Origin: Anaeroplasma bactoclasticum
GTDB lineage: Bacteria > Bacillota_I > Bacilli_A > Acholeplasmatales > Anaeroplasmataceae
Assembly (NCBI RefSeq): GCF_003550015.1
Contig: NZ_QXEV01000011.1
Coordinates: 1 to 52,392 of the forward strand
Length of the DNA: 52,392 nucleotides
Direction: 5' to 3'
The notes below the pieces were generated by a model that was not told the origin of the DNA, did not search any database, and saw only the letters and a list, made by a program, of their open reading frames with translations. This document shows, in pieces, positions 1,325 through 9,630 of the stretch (position 1 is its first letter; each line of letters starts with the position of its first letter). A program made the translations under genes and the position numbers.

Positions 1325-1347
1325 GTTAATATATGGAAGGATTTAAT

Positions 1348-2226
1348 ATGGAAAATAAATTTGGTGAAAAAATAAAAGAAATTAGAAAGAAAACAGGTTT
1401 AAATCAAGATGAGTTTGCAAAAGAATTAGGCTATACATCTAGATCTACAATTAATAAGATAGAAAAAGGCGTTAATGATATGAGCCAAGATAAGCTTGAA
1501 TTATTAATTCGTAAGTTTGATGTTGATGTAAACGAGTTATTTGACTCTTTAGTAAAAGATTCTAGTTCTCCTATTATAGATGAAAAGGGAATCAGAAATA
1601 TCAAAGTACCTGACCCCAATTATACATACCCTAAGGCTGGAATTTATAATATGAAAAATATAAAACCAACAATTACAAGGAGTAATATTATTGTTGGTGA
1701 TTATTCCTATTATAGTGGTAAGGATTTTGAAGCAAGAGTAACTCATCATTATGAATTTTTAGGTGACAAATTAATTATTGGTAAGTTTTGTCAAATTGGT
1801 AATAATATTGAATTCATTATGAATGGAGCAAATCATCAAATGAATGCAGCAACTACATTTCCATTTTATGTAATGGATGGTTGGAAACAAGAGTCTCCCA
1901 AAATATCTGATTTACCATTTAAAGGGGATACTATCGTTGGTAATGATTGCTGGATTGGGCAAAATGTTACAGTTTTACCTGGAGTTCATATTGGTAATGG
2001 GGTAATTATAGGTGCTGATTCTGTTGTGACAAAAGATTTACCAGCATATTCTATATGTTGTGGTAATCCATGTAGAGTAAAGAAAATGAGATTTAGTGAT
2101 GATATTATTAAAATCTTAGAAGAACTAAAATGGTGGGATAAAAGTGTAGATGAAATCCAAAAGATTATTCCTATCATTACAAAGGCAAATCCTACTAAAG
2201 AAGAATTAGAAGCATTATTAAAATAG
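1348..2226 (+). CDS. XRE-type HTH fused to a hexapeptide-repeat (Vat/CatB-like) acetyltransferase
   Basis: The 292-residue protein starts at ATG 1348, 7 bases after GGAAGG. Residues 5-62 are an XRE/Cro-type helix-turn-helix (KIKEIRKKTGLNQDEFAKEL, then the recognition region around SRSTINKIEKG). Residues 95-290 are a left-handed beta-helix acetyltransferase of the streptogramin/chloramphenicol type-B family, showing GDYSYYSG, a catalytic-type His in GANHQMN (H163), WIGQNVTVLPGV and GNPCRV. Such enzymes move acetyl from acetyl-CoA to a hydroxyl of an antibiotic or sugar. Related family members normally lack the DNA-binding domain. The NUDIX gene follows 8 bases later, so the two are an operon. 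Autoregulation and an antibiotic substrate are both guesses. Confidence 0.85.
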   Translation: MENKFGEKIKEIRKKTGLNQDEFAKELGYTSRSTINKIEKGVNDMSQDKLELLIRKFDVDVNELFDSLVKDSSSPIIDEKGIRNIKVPDPNYTYPKAGIYNMKNIKPTITRSNIIVGDYSYYSGKDFEARVTHHYEFLGDKLIIGKFCQIGNNIEFIMNGANHQMNAATTFPFYVMDGWKQESPKISDLPFKGDTIVGNDCWIGQNVTVLPGVHIGNGVIIGADSVVTKDLPAYSICCGNPCRVKKMRFSDDIIKILEELKWWDKSVDEIQKIIPIITKANPTKEELEALLK

Positions 2227-4874: not shown

Positions 4875-7082
4875 ATGCAAACCTTACAAACAGTTTGGAA
4901 CCAAATTAGAAATATACTTGGTTTCAGGAAGAATTCCAAATATGTTTCTAGGCATCTAAATGAGGCAAACATCAGAAGCTCTATTTATATGTGTGCTGTT
5001 GTGTTTGTAATTGAAGTTTGGATGATTATTAGAAGTACAAATAAATATGTCGTTCCAGCAATCAATGAAGGAAAGAACTGGTTTGATGCGATATTCAAAA
5101 ATACATCATTATTCTGGTTATTTATAATTGCCTCTATTGCAATGATGATATTTGGCGTGTTCTATTTAAAAAAGAGTACTTCAAGGAAGTCTTATATTCT
5201 CCCATTTATATTTGGTGGATTATTGATTACATATTCTTTATTAATCATAAAAGAAATATCTCAATTTACTTCATGGGATAATTTAAACGACAGAATTAGT
5301 AATGAAGGCGTATTAGCATTCTATTTATTTGCCTTCTTACTTGGAGTATTTATCGTATTACATACCTTATATTTTATGAAGCATAAACAAAATAGCTATG
5401 GAATATCGATTGTAGTTGTTGTAATGTTTGCACTTATGTGTCTTGCCTTTGGTATAAAGGTTGGATATTCTGATTTCTTCTCAAAGTTTAAGCAGGGTAA
5501 TGGACTTCCAAAGCCTAATAGTGATGGAGAATACGAAATCAAATCTATGCTATGCTTCTTAACTATGGTAATTTATGTTGGTTGCTTACTAATTTGGAAG
5601 CCATATATTTCTATTACTTTGCTAACCTCAATTTTCATGGTGTTCTATGCACTTTTAGATGTAAATAGAGCAAATAGAGTATTTGCAGATGGTGAAAAGG
5701 TTAATTATATTACCTTCTTAATTTCCTTAGTTGTAGTTACAGTAACGATTTATCAGCAGCGTGTAAGAGAAGGAGAAAAATCAGAATCCTTAGAGTATGC
5801 TGCAGAACATGATGAATTAACTGGTATTCATAATTTATATTATTTAGAAAATAAGGCTAAAGAAATTATGGCAAATCCACTAAAGGATATTAGTGGCTAT
5901 ACATTCTTATTTATAAATATTGAAAACTTTAAAACATTTAATGATCAAAAGGGCTTTGCAGAAGGTAATGTATTCTTAAAATCCTTTGCTAAGGAATTAG
6001 AAAGAATATTTGAAGGAGATGTTGTTGCAAGACAAGCCGATGACCACTTTGTGTGCTTGGCTTCCAATGATAATCTACATGAAAGATTAGCTGAATTAAA
6101 TAAATTATTAAATTCAGGTATTTATGATATTTATTTAGAATTAAAGGTTGGAGGATATATTTCAACAAGAAATGATGAAGACCCAAGAAGAGCTATAGAT
6201 AAGGCAAGATATGCCTCAGGCTTAATTCGTCATAAATATGGTATTTATTATAGTGAATATGATGAAGAAACACATAAGAAATACCATAAGAGACAATATA
6301 TTGTTAATCATATTGATCAAGCTGTACAGGAAGGCTGGATTAGACCATATTATCAGCCAGTTGTATGGAGTGATACAAAAGAACTTTGTGGATGCGAAGC
6401 ACTAGCCCGTTGGATTGACCCTAAATATGGCTTCCTATCTCCAGGTGATTTTATTCCTATCTTAGAAGAGCATAGATTAATTCATAAGCTTGATGTTGCA
6501 ATCTTTGAAAGTGTATGCAAGGATTTAAGAAGCCATATGGATAGTGGTAAGCCATTTGTTCCGGTATCCTTAAATTTCTCTAGACTAGACTTTGAGCTTA
6601 TGGATGCTGTTACTGTATTAAATGATTTAGTAACTAAATATAATGTTCCAAGAGACTATATCCATGTAGAGGTTACAGAAAGTGCCTTAACAGATAATAT
6701 GGATATTCTAAAGCAATCCATGGACCGCTTCCATGAGCTTGGCTTTGCAATCTGGCTTGATGATTTTGGCTCTGGCTATTCCAGTTTAAATGTATTAAAG
6801 GATTATAGATTTGATGTATTAAAGATTGATATGAAATTCTTATCTAGCTTTGATACAAACCCTAAATCTAAGGATATCATTAAGAGTGTTGTAGATTTAG
6901 CTAAGAAGGTTGGAATGAAGACTCTAACTGAGGGTGTTGAAACAAAGGAACAAGCAGAATTCTTGAATGTAGTTGGCTGTGGTAGACTTCAAGGATACCT
7001 ATTTGGTAAGCCACTACCTGTAGCGGATATTGATGATGGAATCGAAACTGGAAAATATACTGTTTCTAAGGCAATAATCTAA
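4875..7082 (+). CDS. Membrane GGDEF-EAL protein, probable c-di-GMP phosphodiesterase
   Basis: The 735-residue protein starts at ATG 4875 after AAGGAAGGG. About eight membrane segments fill residues 30-295. A GGDEF-like domain follows (about 305-470), but its signature is degenerate, QADDHF at 387-392, so cyclase activity is unlikely. The EAL domain (about 480-725) looks intact: E508 in CEALARW, SLNFS, EVTESAL, DDFGSGYSSL, KIDMKFL and EGVETKEQ. The best reading is a phosphodiesterase whose GGDEF-like part is regulatory, for example as a GTP sensor as known in related proteins. No active diguanylate cyclase is in this window. Confidence 0.87.
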   Translation: MQTLQTVWNQIRNILGFRKNSKYVSRHLNEANIRSSIYMCAVVFVIEVWMIIRSTNKYVVPAINEGKNWFDAIFKNTSLFWLFIIASIAMMIFGVFYLKKSTSRKSYILPFIFGGLLITYSLLIIKEISQFTSWDNLNDRISNEGVLAFYLFAFLLGVFIVLHTLYFMKHKQNSYGISIVVVVMFALMCLAFGIKVGYSDFFSKFKQGNGLPKPNSDGEYEIKSMLCFLTMVIYVGCLLIWKPYISITLLTSIFMVFYALLDVNRANRVFADGEKVNYITFLISLVVVTVTIYQQRVREGEKSESLEYAAEHDELTGIHNLYYLENKAKEIMANPLKDISGYTFLFINIENFKTFNDQKGFAEGNVFLKSFAKELERIFEGDVVARQADDHFVCLASNDNLHERLAELNKLLNSGIYDIYLELKVGGYISTRNDEDPRRAIDKARYASGLIRHKYGIYYSEYDEETHKKYHKRQYIVNHIDQAVQEGWIRPYYQPVVWSDTKELCGCEALARWIDPKYGFLSPGDFIPILEEHRLIHKLDVAIFESVCKDLRSHMDSGKPFVPVSLNFSRLDFELMDAVTVLNDLVTKYNVPRDYIHVEVTESALTDNMDILKQSMDRFHELGFAIWLDDFGSGYSSLNVLKDYRFDVLKIDMKFLSSFDTNPKSKDIIKSVVDLAKKVGMKTLTEGVETKEQAEFLNVVGCGRLQGYLFGKPLPVADIDDGIETGKYTVSKAII

Positions 7083-7110
7083 AAAAGAAGGCACAAGCCT
7101 TCTTTTGTTT
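7083..7110 (+). terminator. Intrinsic terminator after the EAL gene
   Basis: AAAAGAAGGC / GCCTTCTTTT around ACAA, then TTTTGTTT. It begins at the stop codon. It rules out the in-frame TTG at 7105 as a start of the next gene. Confidence 0.8.
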
Positions 7111-7143
7111 AAAAATTATAATGTATTAAAGGATGTGGTATTC

Positions 7144-7854
7144 TTGGAAAAGAATAATGAATTATTTTTAAATTTATATAAAAAATTAGAATCTGTTTTA
7201 TCCTGTACGGTTAAAGCTAGACCTCAGGATTCTCCTATTTGGGTATTCGAAAATCAATTAAAAAAATCCGAAGACCCTAAAAAGAAGGCAAGAAGTGAAA
7301 AATATTCTACTGTACGTCAAATGAGAAATATATTAGCTCATGATGAAATGGGTGATGACGAACCATTTACAGTAAATGATGATACTATAGAGTTTTTAGA
7401 ATCAGAAATTAAAGCCTTAGAAGAACAAAAAAGAGCATTAGATGTATGTGTTCCTTTTTCAAGGCTTTTATATGCAACTAAAAATTCCTTAGTTACAGTT
7501 ATCGCAACTAAGATGCTAGAAAAGGGAATTACAAATGTTCCTATTTTAAATGAGAAAAAGGTTATTGGTATGTTTAATGGTAAAGCATTCATTCATATTA
7601 TGAAAAGTAGAAAGGGAGTTACTATTGATGAGCATACAAAAATGAAGGATATTAAGCAATTCCTATATCTAGATATGAATGATGGTATAAGATATGAATT
7701 TGTAGCTAAGGATACAAAATTAGATATTTTATCTCAAGCATTTAAAAGAACAAATAAGGGTAAAATAGAGCTTTTAATTGTAACAGATTCAGGAGATAAA
7801 TATGAACCAGTCTTGGGTGTAATATCCCCACATGACATCTTAGAAAGAGGTTAA
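7144..7854 (+). CDS. HEPN-like domain fused to a CBS-domain pair
   Basis: I take TTG 7144 as the start. A TATAAT at 7117-7122 puts the transcript start near 7129, and AAAGGATGTGG (7128-7138) fits as a ribosome-binding site; a GTG at 7135 is the alternative. The 236-residue protein has an N-terminal helical region ending in MRNILAH (R61, N62, H66), the RNxxxH signature of HEPN RNases and RNA-binding domains. Two CBS domains follow (about 105-150 and 160-235; VTVIATKML, GITNVPIL, GVISPHDIL), which usually bind adenosine nucleotides. A nucleotide-controlled RNA-acting protein is a plausible inference, not a demonstrated function. Confidence 0.7.
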   Translation: MEKNNELFLNLYKKLESVLSCTVKARPQDSPIWVFENQLKKSEDPKKKARSEKYSTVRQMRNILAHDEMGDDEPFTVNDDTIEFLESEIKALEEQKRALDVCVPFSRLLYATKNSLVTVIATKMLEKGITNVPILNEKKVIGMFNGKAFIHIMKSRKGVTIDEHTKMKDIKQFLYLDMNDGIRYEFVAKDTKLDILSQAFKRTNKGKIELLIVTDSGDKYEPVLGVISPHDILERG

Positions 7855-7859
7855 AACTT

Positions 7860-7893
7860 GACAATCTACTATTTATAGTGGATTGTCTTTTTT
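7860..7893 (+). terminator. Intrinsic terminator
   Basis: GACAATC / GATTGTC outer stem with an inner ACTAT / ATAGT stem, then TTTTTT. Confidence 0.8.
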
Positions 7894-7960
7894 CTTTAAA
7901 AATGATTTTTAAATACACTCTATTATGATATAATATTTTTTGTTTGAAGGAGGGATGATG

Positions 7961-8509
7961 ATGCAAAATGAAGAAAATAAAGATATAAGAAATATCCCTC
8001 TTATTTTAGATGAGGCTAATTATTTAAAAGACGAATCTAAAGAAATATATGATGATTTAAATGAAATATATGAAACAAATGAATGGAATCATTATAATGA
8101 ATTTGATGGGTTTGATGTAAAAGCTAAATCAAAATCAAAAACAATAGGTATGGTAACAGGTGTAGGTATTTCATCCATAGGATTTTTAACCTTCTTTGTT
8201 GCGATTATATTTTCTATGATGATGAATAATTCCTTTACACCTACAGTTACTAACCCTAAAATAGAGGTAATCCATCGAAATACAATTAGTTATTCCTTTA
8301 GCTTTACAAACCCATATGGCATTAGTATGTATTGTGATATAGAAAATGAAAATAAAGAATCCTTAGCTAAAACAATAATACAGGGATATGGAACATTTAA
8401 TGGTGAATTTGAAAATCTAGAGGCTGGTAGTTATACTTTAGTTGTATATTCGGCTCAATATGGCACAAAGGCTTATTATTATACATCAGATGTTATTAAG
8501 ATATATTAA
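7961..8509 (+). CDS. Single-pass membrane protein with extracytoplasmic domain, unknown function
   Basis: Three ATGs lie in a row; I choose 7961 because AAGGAGGG (7947-7954) is then 6 bases away. The 182 residues start with an acidic cytoplasmic part (about 1-65), one transmembrane helix (about 68-90, VGISSIGFLTFFVAIIFSMM) and a beta-rich outer domain (YSFSFTNPYGISMYC, FENLEAGSYTLVVYSA) that resembles an Ig-like or carboxypeptidase-regulatory-like fold in outline. Its stop is 11 bases before the start of the mechanosensitive channel gene, so the two are co-transcribed and the product may act with that channel. I recognise no family. Confidence 0.65.
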   Translation: MQNEENKDIRNIPLILDEANYLKDESKEIYDDLNEIYETNEWNHYNEFDGFDVKAKSKSKTIGMVTGVGISSIGFLTFFVAIIFSMMMNNSFTPTVTNPKIEVIHRNTISYSFSFTNPYGISMYCDIENENKESLAKTIIQGYGTFNGEFENLEAGSYTLVVYSAQYGTKAYYYTSDVIKIY

Positions 8510-8520
8510 TGGGGGATTAT

Positions 8521-9630
8521 ATGCAAGAAAAGAAAAAAGCACCTTCCAAAAAGAAGGTACGTGTACAAGAAAAGTTAATAGAAATACAAACAAAGGAAGC
8601 GAAAAGTAGAAGAAGAAAAAGAGCCTTCCGTAAGATTAGAGCTTGGGGTTTAGCAATAATAGGAATAGCTATTGTCATTCTTATTCTATTTTCTAAGAAT
8701 ATTTTTGGTAAAGATTTATTAAATAATGGAGAAGAAAATACATTTATTTCCTCTATTGGTGATTGGTTTTGCAAAACTACAACCTCTTGGATACATACAG
8801 GATTAACCATTATTTTAACATTACTAGCAATATTCTTACTTAAGGTAATAAGAAAAGGTGTTGGTATGAAAAATAAGAAGGTTGCAACCTTCATTTCTAT
8901 CTCATTTTCCTTATTAAAATGGATTATTATCATTGTAGCCTTAATCCGTATTCTAATGGTATGGGGCGTAGATGTATTAACTATTTTAGCTGGTTTAGGT
9001 ATTGTCGCATTAATCATAGGTTTAGGATGTCAATCCTTAATCTCTGATATTGTTGCAGGAATCTTCTTGGTAGTAGATAATGCATTTGAGGTTGGAGATA
9101 TTGTAGTAATTGATGGCTTTAGAGGTAAAGTTAAAGAGATTGGCTTAAAATCTACCAAAATAGAAGATGTTGGTGGTAATGTTAAGCTAATTCAAAACTC
9201 CGATATCGCAACTGTAGTGAATTTAACTAATTCCTATAGTGTTGCAGTAAATGAAATTGGTATTGGCTATAATGAAAATATTAAAAAGGTAGAAGCTTTA
9301 GTTTCTGAAAATATGGATGAAATTGTATATGGTATTCATGGAATTATTAAAGGACCATTTTATAAGGGTGTATCTTCTATGTCAGATTCTTCTGTAATCT
9401 TAAGATTTGTTACTACCTGTCTAGAAGAAGATAGATTCCAAATTGAGCGTGAGCTTAATCGTAATTTCTTAATCTTCTTACATGATCATGATATTACAAT
9501 TCCATTCCCACAAGTTACTGTAAATAAACCAGATCCAAATCACCTAAAGACAACAAAAACAGCGGAAAAGAAATCGGAAGAATTCTTAGATGGTCAAAGA
9601 AAAGAGTCTTTAGGAATAGAAGAAAACTAA
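8521..9630 (+). CDS. MscS-family small-conductance mechanosensitive channel
   Basis: Start chosen at ATG 8521 behind GGGGGAT (8511-8517); an ATG at 8509 overlaps the previous stop and lacks a site. The 369-residue protein has a very basic N-terminus, a first membrane helix near residues 40-60, a second near 90-110, and the MscS core. The pore helix is GLGIVALIIGLGCQSLISDIVAG, and the beta domain is DNAFEVGDIVVIDGFRGKVKEIGLKSTKI with NSDI. Such channels open under membrane tension and release solutes in hypo-osmotic shock. Confidence 0.9.
   Translation: MQEKKKAPSKKKVRVQEKLIEIQTKEAKSRRRKRAFRKIRAWGLAIIGIAIVILILFSKNIFGKDLLNNGEENTFISSIGDWFCKTTTSWIHTGLTIILTLLAIFLLKVIRKGVGMKNKKVATFISISFSLLKWIIIIVALIRILMVWGVDVLTILAGLGIVALIIGLGCQSLISDIVAGIFLVVDNAFEVGDIVVIDGFRGKVKEIGLKSTKIEDVGGNVKLIQNSDIATVVNLTNSYSVAVNEIGIGYNENIKKVEALVSENMDEIVYGIHGIIKGPFYKGVSSMSDSSVILRFVTTCLEEDRFQIERELNRNFLIFLHDHDITIPFPQVTVNKPDPNHLKTTKTAEKKSEEFLDGQRKESLGIEEN

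Follow-up and report, generated by a model that had tools for sequence, protein, structure and literature searches.

The HEPN-CBS gene and its flanks

The window, the whole 52,392-nucleotide stretch of Anaeroplasma bactoclasticum DNA that was analysed, encodes a protein of 236 residues in which the assignment of an N-terminal HEPN-type domain, joined to a pair of CBS domains, is well supported (Table 1). Its TTG is a credible start codon, as an earlier note on this DNA had proposed, since a possible ribosome-binding site lies upstream and a relative that is 78% identical (L002) has an ATG at the same point. Between these two genes dN was 0.14 and dS 1.44 (dS of the HEPN part alone was not estimable).

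The earlier note had also given the gene its own promoter and low, separate expression. Strong hairpins lie on both sides of the gene and thus support a separate transcription unit in part; the upstream hairpin is absent from the list produced by the consensus terminator scan. The promoter was not borne out. A promoter scan of positions 6950 to 8050 gave 7 promoter-like sites against 6.9 expected, and the space that separates the HEPN-CBS start from the upstream gene has no + strand site; an exact TATAAT read from the sequence at 7117–7122 has no recognisable partner hexamer. Nothing speaks to the level of expression.

The upstream gene (4875–7082) encodes a GGDEF-EAL protein with the EAL motif kept; in place of GGDEF it seems to have ADDHF, which probably leaves the cyclase half inactive. 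Elsewhere in the window (1333–2226), one protein unusually combines an XRE-type helix-turn-helix (Pfam HTH_3) with a hexapeptide-repeat transferase (Pfam Hexapep).

Table 1. Coordinates of the HEPN-CBS gene, its domains and its flanking elements in the window.
Feature	Position	Strand	Basis
Terminator-like hairpin, T-rich arm, between GGDEF-EAL gene and HEPN-CBS gene	7083..7106	+	-13.4 kcal/mol, z -5.24
Possible ribosome-binding site AAAGGA	7128..7133	+	read from sequence
HEPN-CBS gene	7144..7854	+	236-aa frame, TTG start
N-terminal HEPN-type domain, residues 1-99	7144..7440	+	structure model, structural matches, HepT profile matches
R61-N62-x3-H66, predicted active-site motif	7324..7341	+	invariant in 48/48 aligned relatives
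First CBS domain, about residues 107-147	7462..7584	+	best PF00571 stretch
Second CBS domain, about residues 184-233, limits approximate	7693..7842	+	second PF00571 stretch, CNNM alignment, conservation
Intrinsic terminator 3' of HEPN-CBS gene	7860..7893	+	consensus scan; -15.5 kcal/mol, z -6.44

The N-terminal domain resembles HEPN domains

The window protein alone had no HEPN match in Pfam and matched nothing in NCBIfam up to E 5. Against PHROGs and PADLOC it gave weak matches, including one to CARF-HEPN (E 0.028, residues 16–74). The model of its first 99 residues (pLDDT 89.5, pTM 0.80) has helices at 2–20, 31–40, 45–69 and 79–98, and R61 and H66 lie near the end of the third.

When this model was compared with known structures by VIA-align (128 chains aligned), HEPN structures took ranks 1–7 and 9, that is, 8 of the top 9. 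These chains (1wwp, 8xeh, 1wty, 3o10, 7bxo, 6m6u, 6m6w and 5yep; we take 1wty to be a HEPN structure) aligned over 85–96 residues at an rmsd of 2.9–3.8 and Z of 5.4–7.1, values that fall under the level of about 13 below which, as the program warns, a match between helical bundles can reflect a common arrangement. Designed three-helix bundles (Z 5.2–5.6, one at rank 8) were interleaved with the lowest HEPN rows, and Foldseek gave no match for residues 1–99 at E ≤ 0.001. Of the top-ranked chains, 1wwp is listed as HEPN in Anantharaman et al. (PMC3710099).

Sequence profiles pointed the same way. A profile of the N-terminal domains of the family, run against 177,635 distinct PDB sequences, matched three HepT chains (E 0.0023, 0.0042 and 0.0042), and no other match was better than E 8.3; its RN-x3-H was aligned on the RN-x3-H of HepT. 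Among 39 N-terminal domains, weak Pfam matches at E ≤ 0.1 were obtained to RiboL-PSP-HEPN (13), HepT-like (13) and Cthe2314-like (8), while Swt1-like HEPN matched 2 and DUF6548, a Pfam family of unknown function, matched 24. The fold check proposed in the earlier note thus yields a HEPN-like fold at modest Z, and the fused arrangement that it had described, an intact motif in a HEPN-type domain ahead of a CBS pair, holds on the model, the structural matches, the HepT profile and the conservation presented below.

The RN-x3-H motif is invariant

The earlier note had started from MRNILAH (residues 60–66), read as an R-x4-H motif in front of two CBS domains. The codons of R61 (7324–7326), N62 (7327–7329) and H66 (7339–7341) are indeed followed by two Pfam CBS stretches. 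The motif by itself proves little, since R-x4-H turned up in 16% of 20,000 shuffles of the window protein (RN-x3-H in 0.8%), and it is the conservation that carries the argument. Some HEPN families are without the motif (Table 1 of PMC3710099).

Across 48 distinct rows of the family alignment R61, N62, H66 and P133 were invariant, and among 39 aligned N-terminal domains R61, N62 and H66 were the only invariant residues, as would be expected for catalysis. RN-x3-H was also found at the expected place in 30 of 32 loci examined later (13 and 19), including plasmid-borne ones from Chloroflexota and Rhodococcus; the other two, L062 and L109, do not cover the motif region, and in L060 the motif was readable. 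The 48 rows and the later loci together give a reading of the motif for all 66 genomes of the class that have a family member. The members were collected with profiles that contain the motif, which makes this conservation partly circular, though several of them first matched mainly via residues 46 onwards. The conservation of R61 and H66 that had been set beforehand as a check was found in every relative in which the residues could be read, and predicted RNase activity is likely.

The 48 rows leave out identical copies, matches above E 1e-8 and four loci removed by hand because their matches fell in the CBS part (L011, L012, L044 and L045). L039, an incomplete frame, was kept as its open segment, and L149, which ends early at a stop codon, was left unmended. 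Removing near-duplicates and L039 gave 41 rows, and removing two with short N-termini from these gave the 39 N-terminal domains.

The CBS half

CBS was the only Pfam domain above cut-off in the window protein (PF00571, E 2.3e-7, 31.5 bits against a cut-off of 24), and residues 96–234 align to the CBS pairs of CNNM proteins of solved structure. CBS was found in all 41 members at E ≤ 1. In the second domain G225 is kept in 37 of 41 members and D231 in 38, which is consistent with putative nucleotide binding by the pair. The CBS half of the full-length model was poor (ten-residue means of 26–56), and no HEPN or CBS structure was among the matches listed for that model in fold searches. Diadenylate cyclase was present in 30 of 30 carrier genomes examined, so that c-di-AMP is neither singled out nor excluded as the ligand.

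Spread of the family

The family is diverse: in the 41-row alignment, identity to the window protein is 16–33% for 39 of 40 relatives. When a profile built from three relatives was run at E ≤ 0.001, it hit 12 of 160 genomes from the order, 38 of 295 in the draw from the phylum and 49 of 247 in that from the class, counts that include weak CBS-only matches. At E ≤ 1e-20, the 41-row profile found a family member in 66 of 395 genomes of the class.

With the window protein as query no homologue was found in viral contigs, plasmids or phages, and an origin of the window gene from any of these was rejected; searches of viral contigs with three subfamily alignments were likewise empty. Queries with other members gave, search by search, 2, 5, 5 (the query's own included) and no plasmid records, and three phage records in one search and none in another. 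The three "phage" records (L107, L108 and L109, labelled as Listeria/Enterococcus phages) are unannotated, UNVERIFIED wastewater contigs. Two of them carry cellular genes: signal peptidase II in L107 and L108, with pseudouridine synthase and phosphoribosyltransferase checked in L108. Two Rhodococcus plasmids, L063 and L064, carry the homologue as two pieces in different frames beside IS21 elements. They share the same motif stretch, their frames were left unmended, and they are probably broken copies.

Gene neighbourhoods

We compared 47 regions. A family gene was located in all of them but L062 and L080, which leaves 45 regions; these include the window, and some are truncated at contig ends. 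Neighbouring genes were mechanical ORFs. Names were confirmed by Pfam in one or two examples each for L17, S9, L13, RimP, NusA, S18, signal peptidase II, pseudouridine synthase, LigT and Sua5, and the others were assigned by reading the sequences.

A connection with c-di-GMP, which the earlier note had drawn from the two phosphodiesterase-type neighbours, did not hold up and was rejected. Homologues of the GGDEF-EAL and HD-GYP genes of the window lie within three genes in no other of the 45 regions, and none adjoin the gene in L002. At a distance of 4 to 7 genes GGDEF-EAL homologues occurred in three regions and HD-GYP homologues in none.

The most frequent gene cluster within three genes of the family, that of ABC ATPases, occurs in 9 of the 45 regions. 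Synteny is kept within groups. Of the 10 regions of group f29, 7 have ecfT-like genes downstream and 6 have rplQ no more than three genes away; L085 and L086 have neither. In parts of group f9 the gene lies near rplM-rpsI (L065, L069), rimP-nusA (L068, L074, L075) or rpsR (L081). In group f14, it starts 2–3 nt after a gene for a LigT-type phosphoesterase in 4 of 5 regions (L082, where Pfam confirmed the LigT-type gene, L083, L084 and L100); the fifth, L099, ends about 290 nt upstream, without sign of such a gene. RNA with 2',3'-cyclic ends, the presumed product of HEPN RNases, can be a substrate of LigT-type enzymes. The HEPN-CBS gene overlaps a Sua5-type gene by 4 nt in L101 and L102. In L108 the overlap, likewise of 4 nt, is with lspA, and rluD and pyr genes come next; lspA is also downstream in L107. 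The neighbourhood of ribosomal and translation genes, seen in several groups, is no more than a lead.

Overall, the gene appears to be chromosomal and to have no fixed partner, and its relatives are mostly among housekeeping genes. Around the plasmid relatives there are methyltransferase, HNH, SIR2 or DUF87 genes, possibly a defence setting. In one locus (L090, genome G431, 7072–9160) two HEPN-CBS paralogues flank a NUDIX-like gene, so named from reading its sequence.

Proposed function and alternatives

We propose, with a probability of about 0.6, that the window protein is a stand-alone, self-regulated and adenylate-gated chromosomal ribonuclease, where we infer the RNase activity, the dimer, the ligand, the direction of gating and the target RNA. 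The HEPN domain (residues 1–99) would pair in a dimer with its two RN-x3-H motifs face to face, and this dimer would cut RNA via R61 and H66 in a metal-independent way. Binding of an adenine nucleotide (AMP, ATP or a derivative) to the C-terminal CBS pair would alter the HEPN dimer and so switch the RNase on or off. A shift in the adenylate pool may then lead to trimming or destruction of cellular RNA, with the RNAs of translation as the favoured guess. The dimer, the cutting of RNA and the switching by CBS are proposed by analogy with DS-11 and HepT, which are compared below, and an RNase acting on cellular RNA is most likely because of the mostly housekeeping settings and the lack of a recurring partner gene.

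A probable relative in Enterococcus faecalis bears on the role of the family. EF1724, a "CBS domain-containing protein", is classed as Important AC with a dVal of 0.020 and has a conservation of 100 in 24 enterococci, where it is among the genes that tell Enterococcus from Vagococcus (PMC7701990). Since ef1723 is lipoprotein signal peptidase II (PMC7117660), and the HEPN-CBS gene of L108 adjoins that gene, EF1724 is probably the E. faecalis relative of the window protein. The fitness effect at EF1724 could possibly arise via polarity on lspA-rluD.

More tentatively, the family may be a widespread housekeeping, non-defensive and energy-gated RNase of Bacilli, in which the CBS pair would read the adenylate state and the HEPN dimer would cut tRNA or rRNA, slowing or remodelling translation. 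It would account for the family's place in Enterococcus, where it is probably core to the genus and important for fitness, and for the sites by or near rplQ, rplM-rpsI, rpsR, rimP-nusA, Sua5/tsaC, LigT-type genes and lspA-rluD.

Could the protein instead be an anti-phage abortive-infection effector like DS-11, in which the HEPN RNase is freed when the CBS pair binds an adenine derivative induced by phage? We regard this as rather unlikely. DS-11 does act as a CBS and HEPN defence protein in Escherichia coli (PMC13092281), and the gene is patchy, being rare in the window's own taxonomic family (3 of 55 genomes, its own included). The surroundings of the plasmid relatives would also fit, as would the weak matches of single members to PADLOC models such as Csx1 (E 0.00097) and CARF-HEPN. 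Set against these are the absence of window homologues from viral contigs, plasmids and phages, the many relatives in housekeeping settings with local synteny, and the lack of a DS-11 match for the window protein itself. In addition, the probable relative EF1724 aids growth in a medium without added phage (PMC7701990).

It is improbable that the HEPN domain serves as a dimerisation or RNA-binding module in a CBS-gated regulator that binds RNA or ribosomes, in a role comparable to that of archaeal CBS hibernation factors. CBS modules bind ribosomes in archaeal HibA and Dri (PMC13324472) and some relatives lie beside ribosomal or translation genes, but R61, N62 and H66 are the sole invariant residues of the 39 N-terminal domains, as a catalytic role would predict. 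Least of all do we expect a HepT/MntA-like toxin with a separate antitoxin, for although sequence profiles place HepT closest among solved structures and 3 of 41 members weakly match the NCBIfam HepT model, the tyrosine at H+2 is missing in 48 of 48 relatives, Pfam found no nucleotidyltransferase (MntA-type) among four window neighbours, and the commonest neighbouring gene cluster lies within three genes in 9 of the 45 regions.

If the adenylate-gated ribonuclease is real, one small protein would combine the sensing of adenine nucleotides with RNase activity in a direct link that needs neither an antitoxin nor a second protein, and would belong to the ordinary chromosome of many Bacilli. The interest of the family lies in its wide spread in the class, its mostly housekeeping settings, its invariant motif and its probable importance for fitness in one species; precedents exist.

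Comparison with known systems

The general HEPN-CBS concept is already in print. Fusions of HEPN and CBS domains, some with HD, were predicted in 2013 and proposed to respond to nucleotides in regulating RNA stability (Anantharaman et al. 2013, PMC3710099). These include alr3009 and a Pelobacter propionicus protein, which share the fusion of HEPN to CBS with the window protein. In contrast, alr3009 is listed there under Swt1-like HEPN with CBS and HD, whereas the window protein has no HD match in its 236 residues. In our searches of open-access literature on HEPN with CBS, CBS in ribosome hibernation or c-di-AMP, DUF6548 and lspA-rluD, we found no study of the present version.

The HepT toxins of HEPN-MNT pairs (PDB 6m6w, 6m6u and 5yep) are the closest solved proteins by profile and share the aligned RN-x3-H and a similar helical bundle. 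The motif of HepT has the form R-x4-H-x-Y. The window protein differs in being without the tyrosine of H-x-Y, in having no nucleotidyltransferase partner that we could see, and in its fused CBS pair.

The archaeal ribosome hibernation factors HibA and Dri share CBS modules with the window protein, and in both these modules are described as ribosome-binding elements (PMC13324472). The CBS module of HibA prefers AMP, and AMP or ATP produced no clear change in its ribosome binding (PMC13324472). HibA has four CBS domains and an HPF/RaiA-like domain and Dri consists of CBS modules, so the likeness to the window protein is one of analogy and not of family.

DS-11 is likewise a single protein with CBS and HEPN domains, with validated phage defence in E. 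coli (DefensePredictor, Science 2026, PMC13092281). Its defence was lost in Y157A, a change of a CBS residue, and in HEPN catalytic mutants (PMC13092281). The window protein had no match up to E 0.1 to its model (NCBIfam NF053863.1, DS11_antiphage, 305 positions, cut-off 260 bits), and no protein exceeded the cut-off in any of 198 genomes of the class. Among the 41 members, 13 matched at E ≤ 0.01 (best E 1.7e-6), and of ten proteins scanned singly three matched, the best at 21.1 bits; these matches begin at residues 81, 100 and 112. Where limits are known, matches of the family and of other CBS proteins are confined to positions 67–195 of the 305, which suggests that the HEPN domain of DS-11 is C-terminal, the reverse of the order in the window protein. 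If our reading is right, the window protein would provide an assayable link from energy state to RNA turnover, and a non-defence counterpart to DS-11 for the gating of HEPN nucleases by CBS domains.
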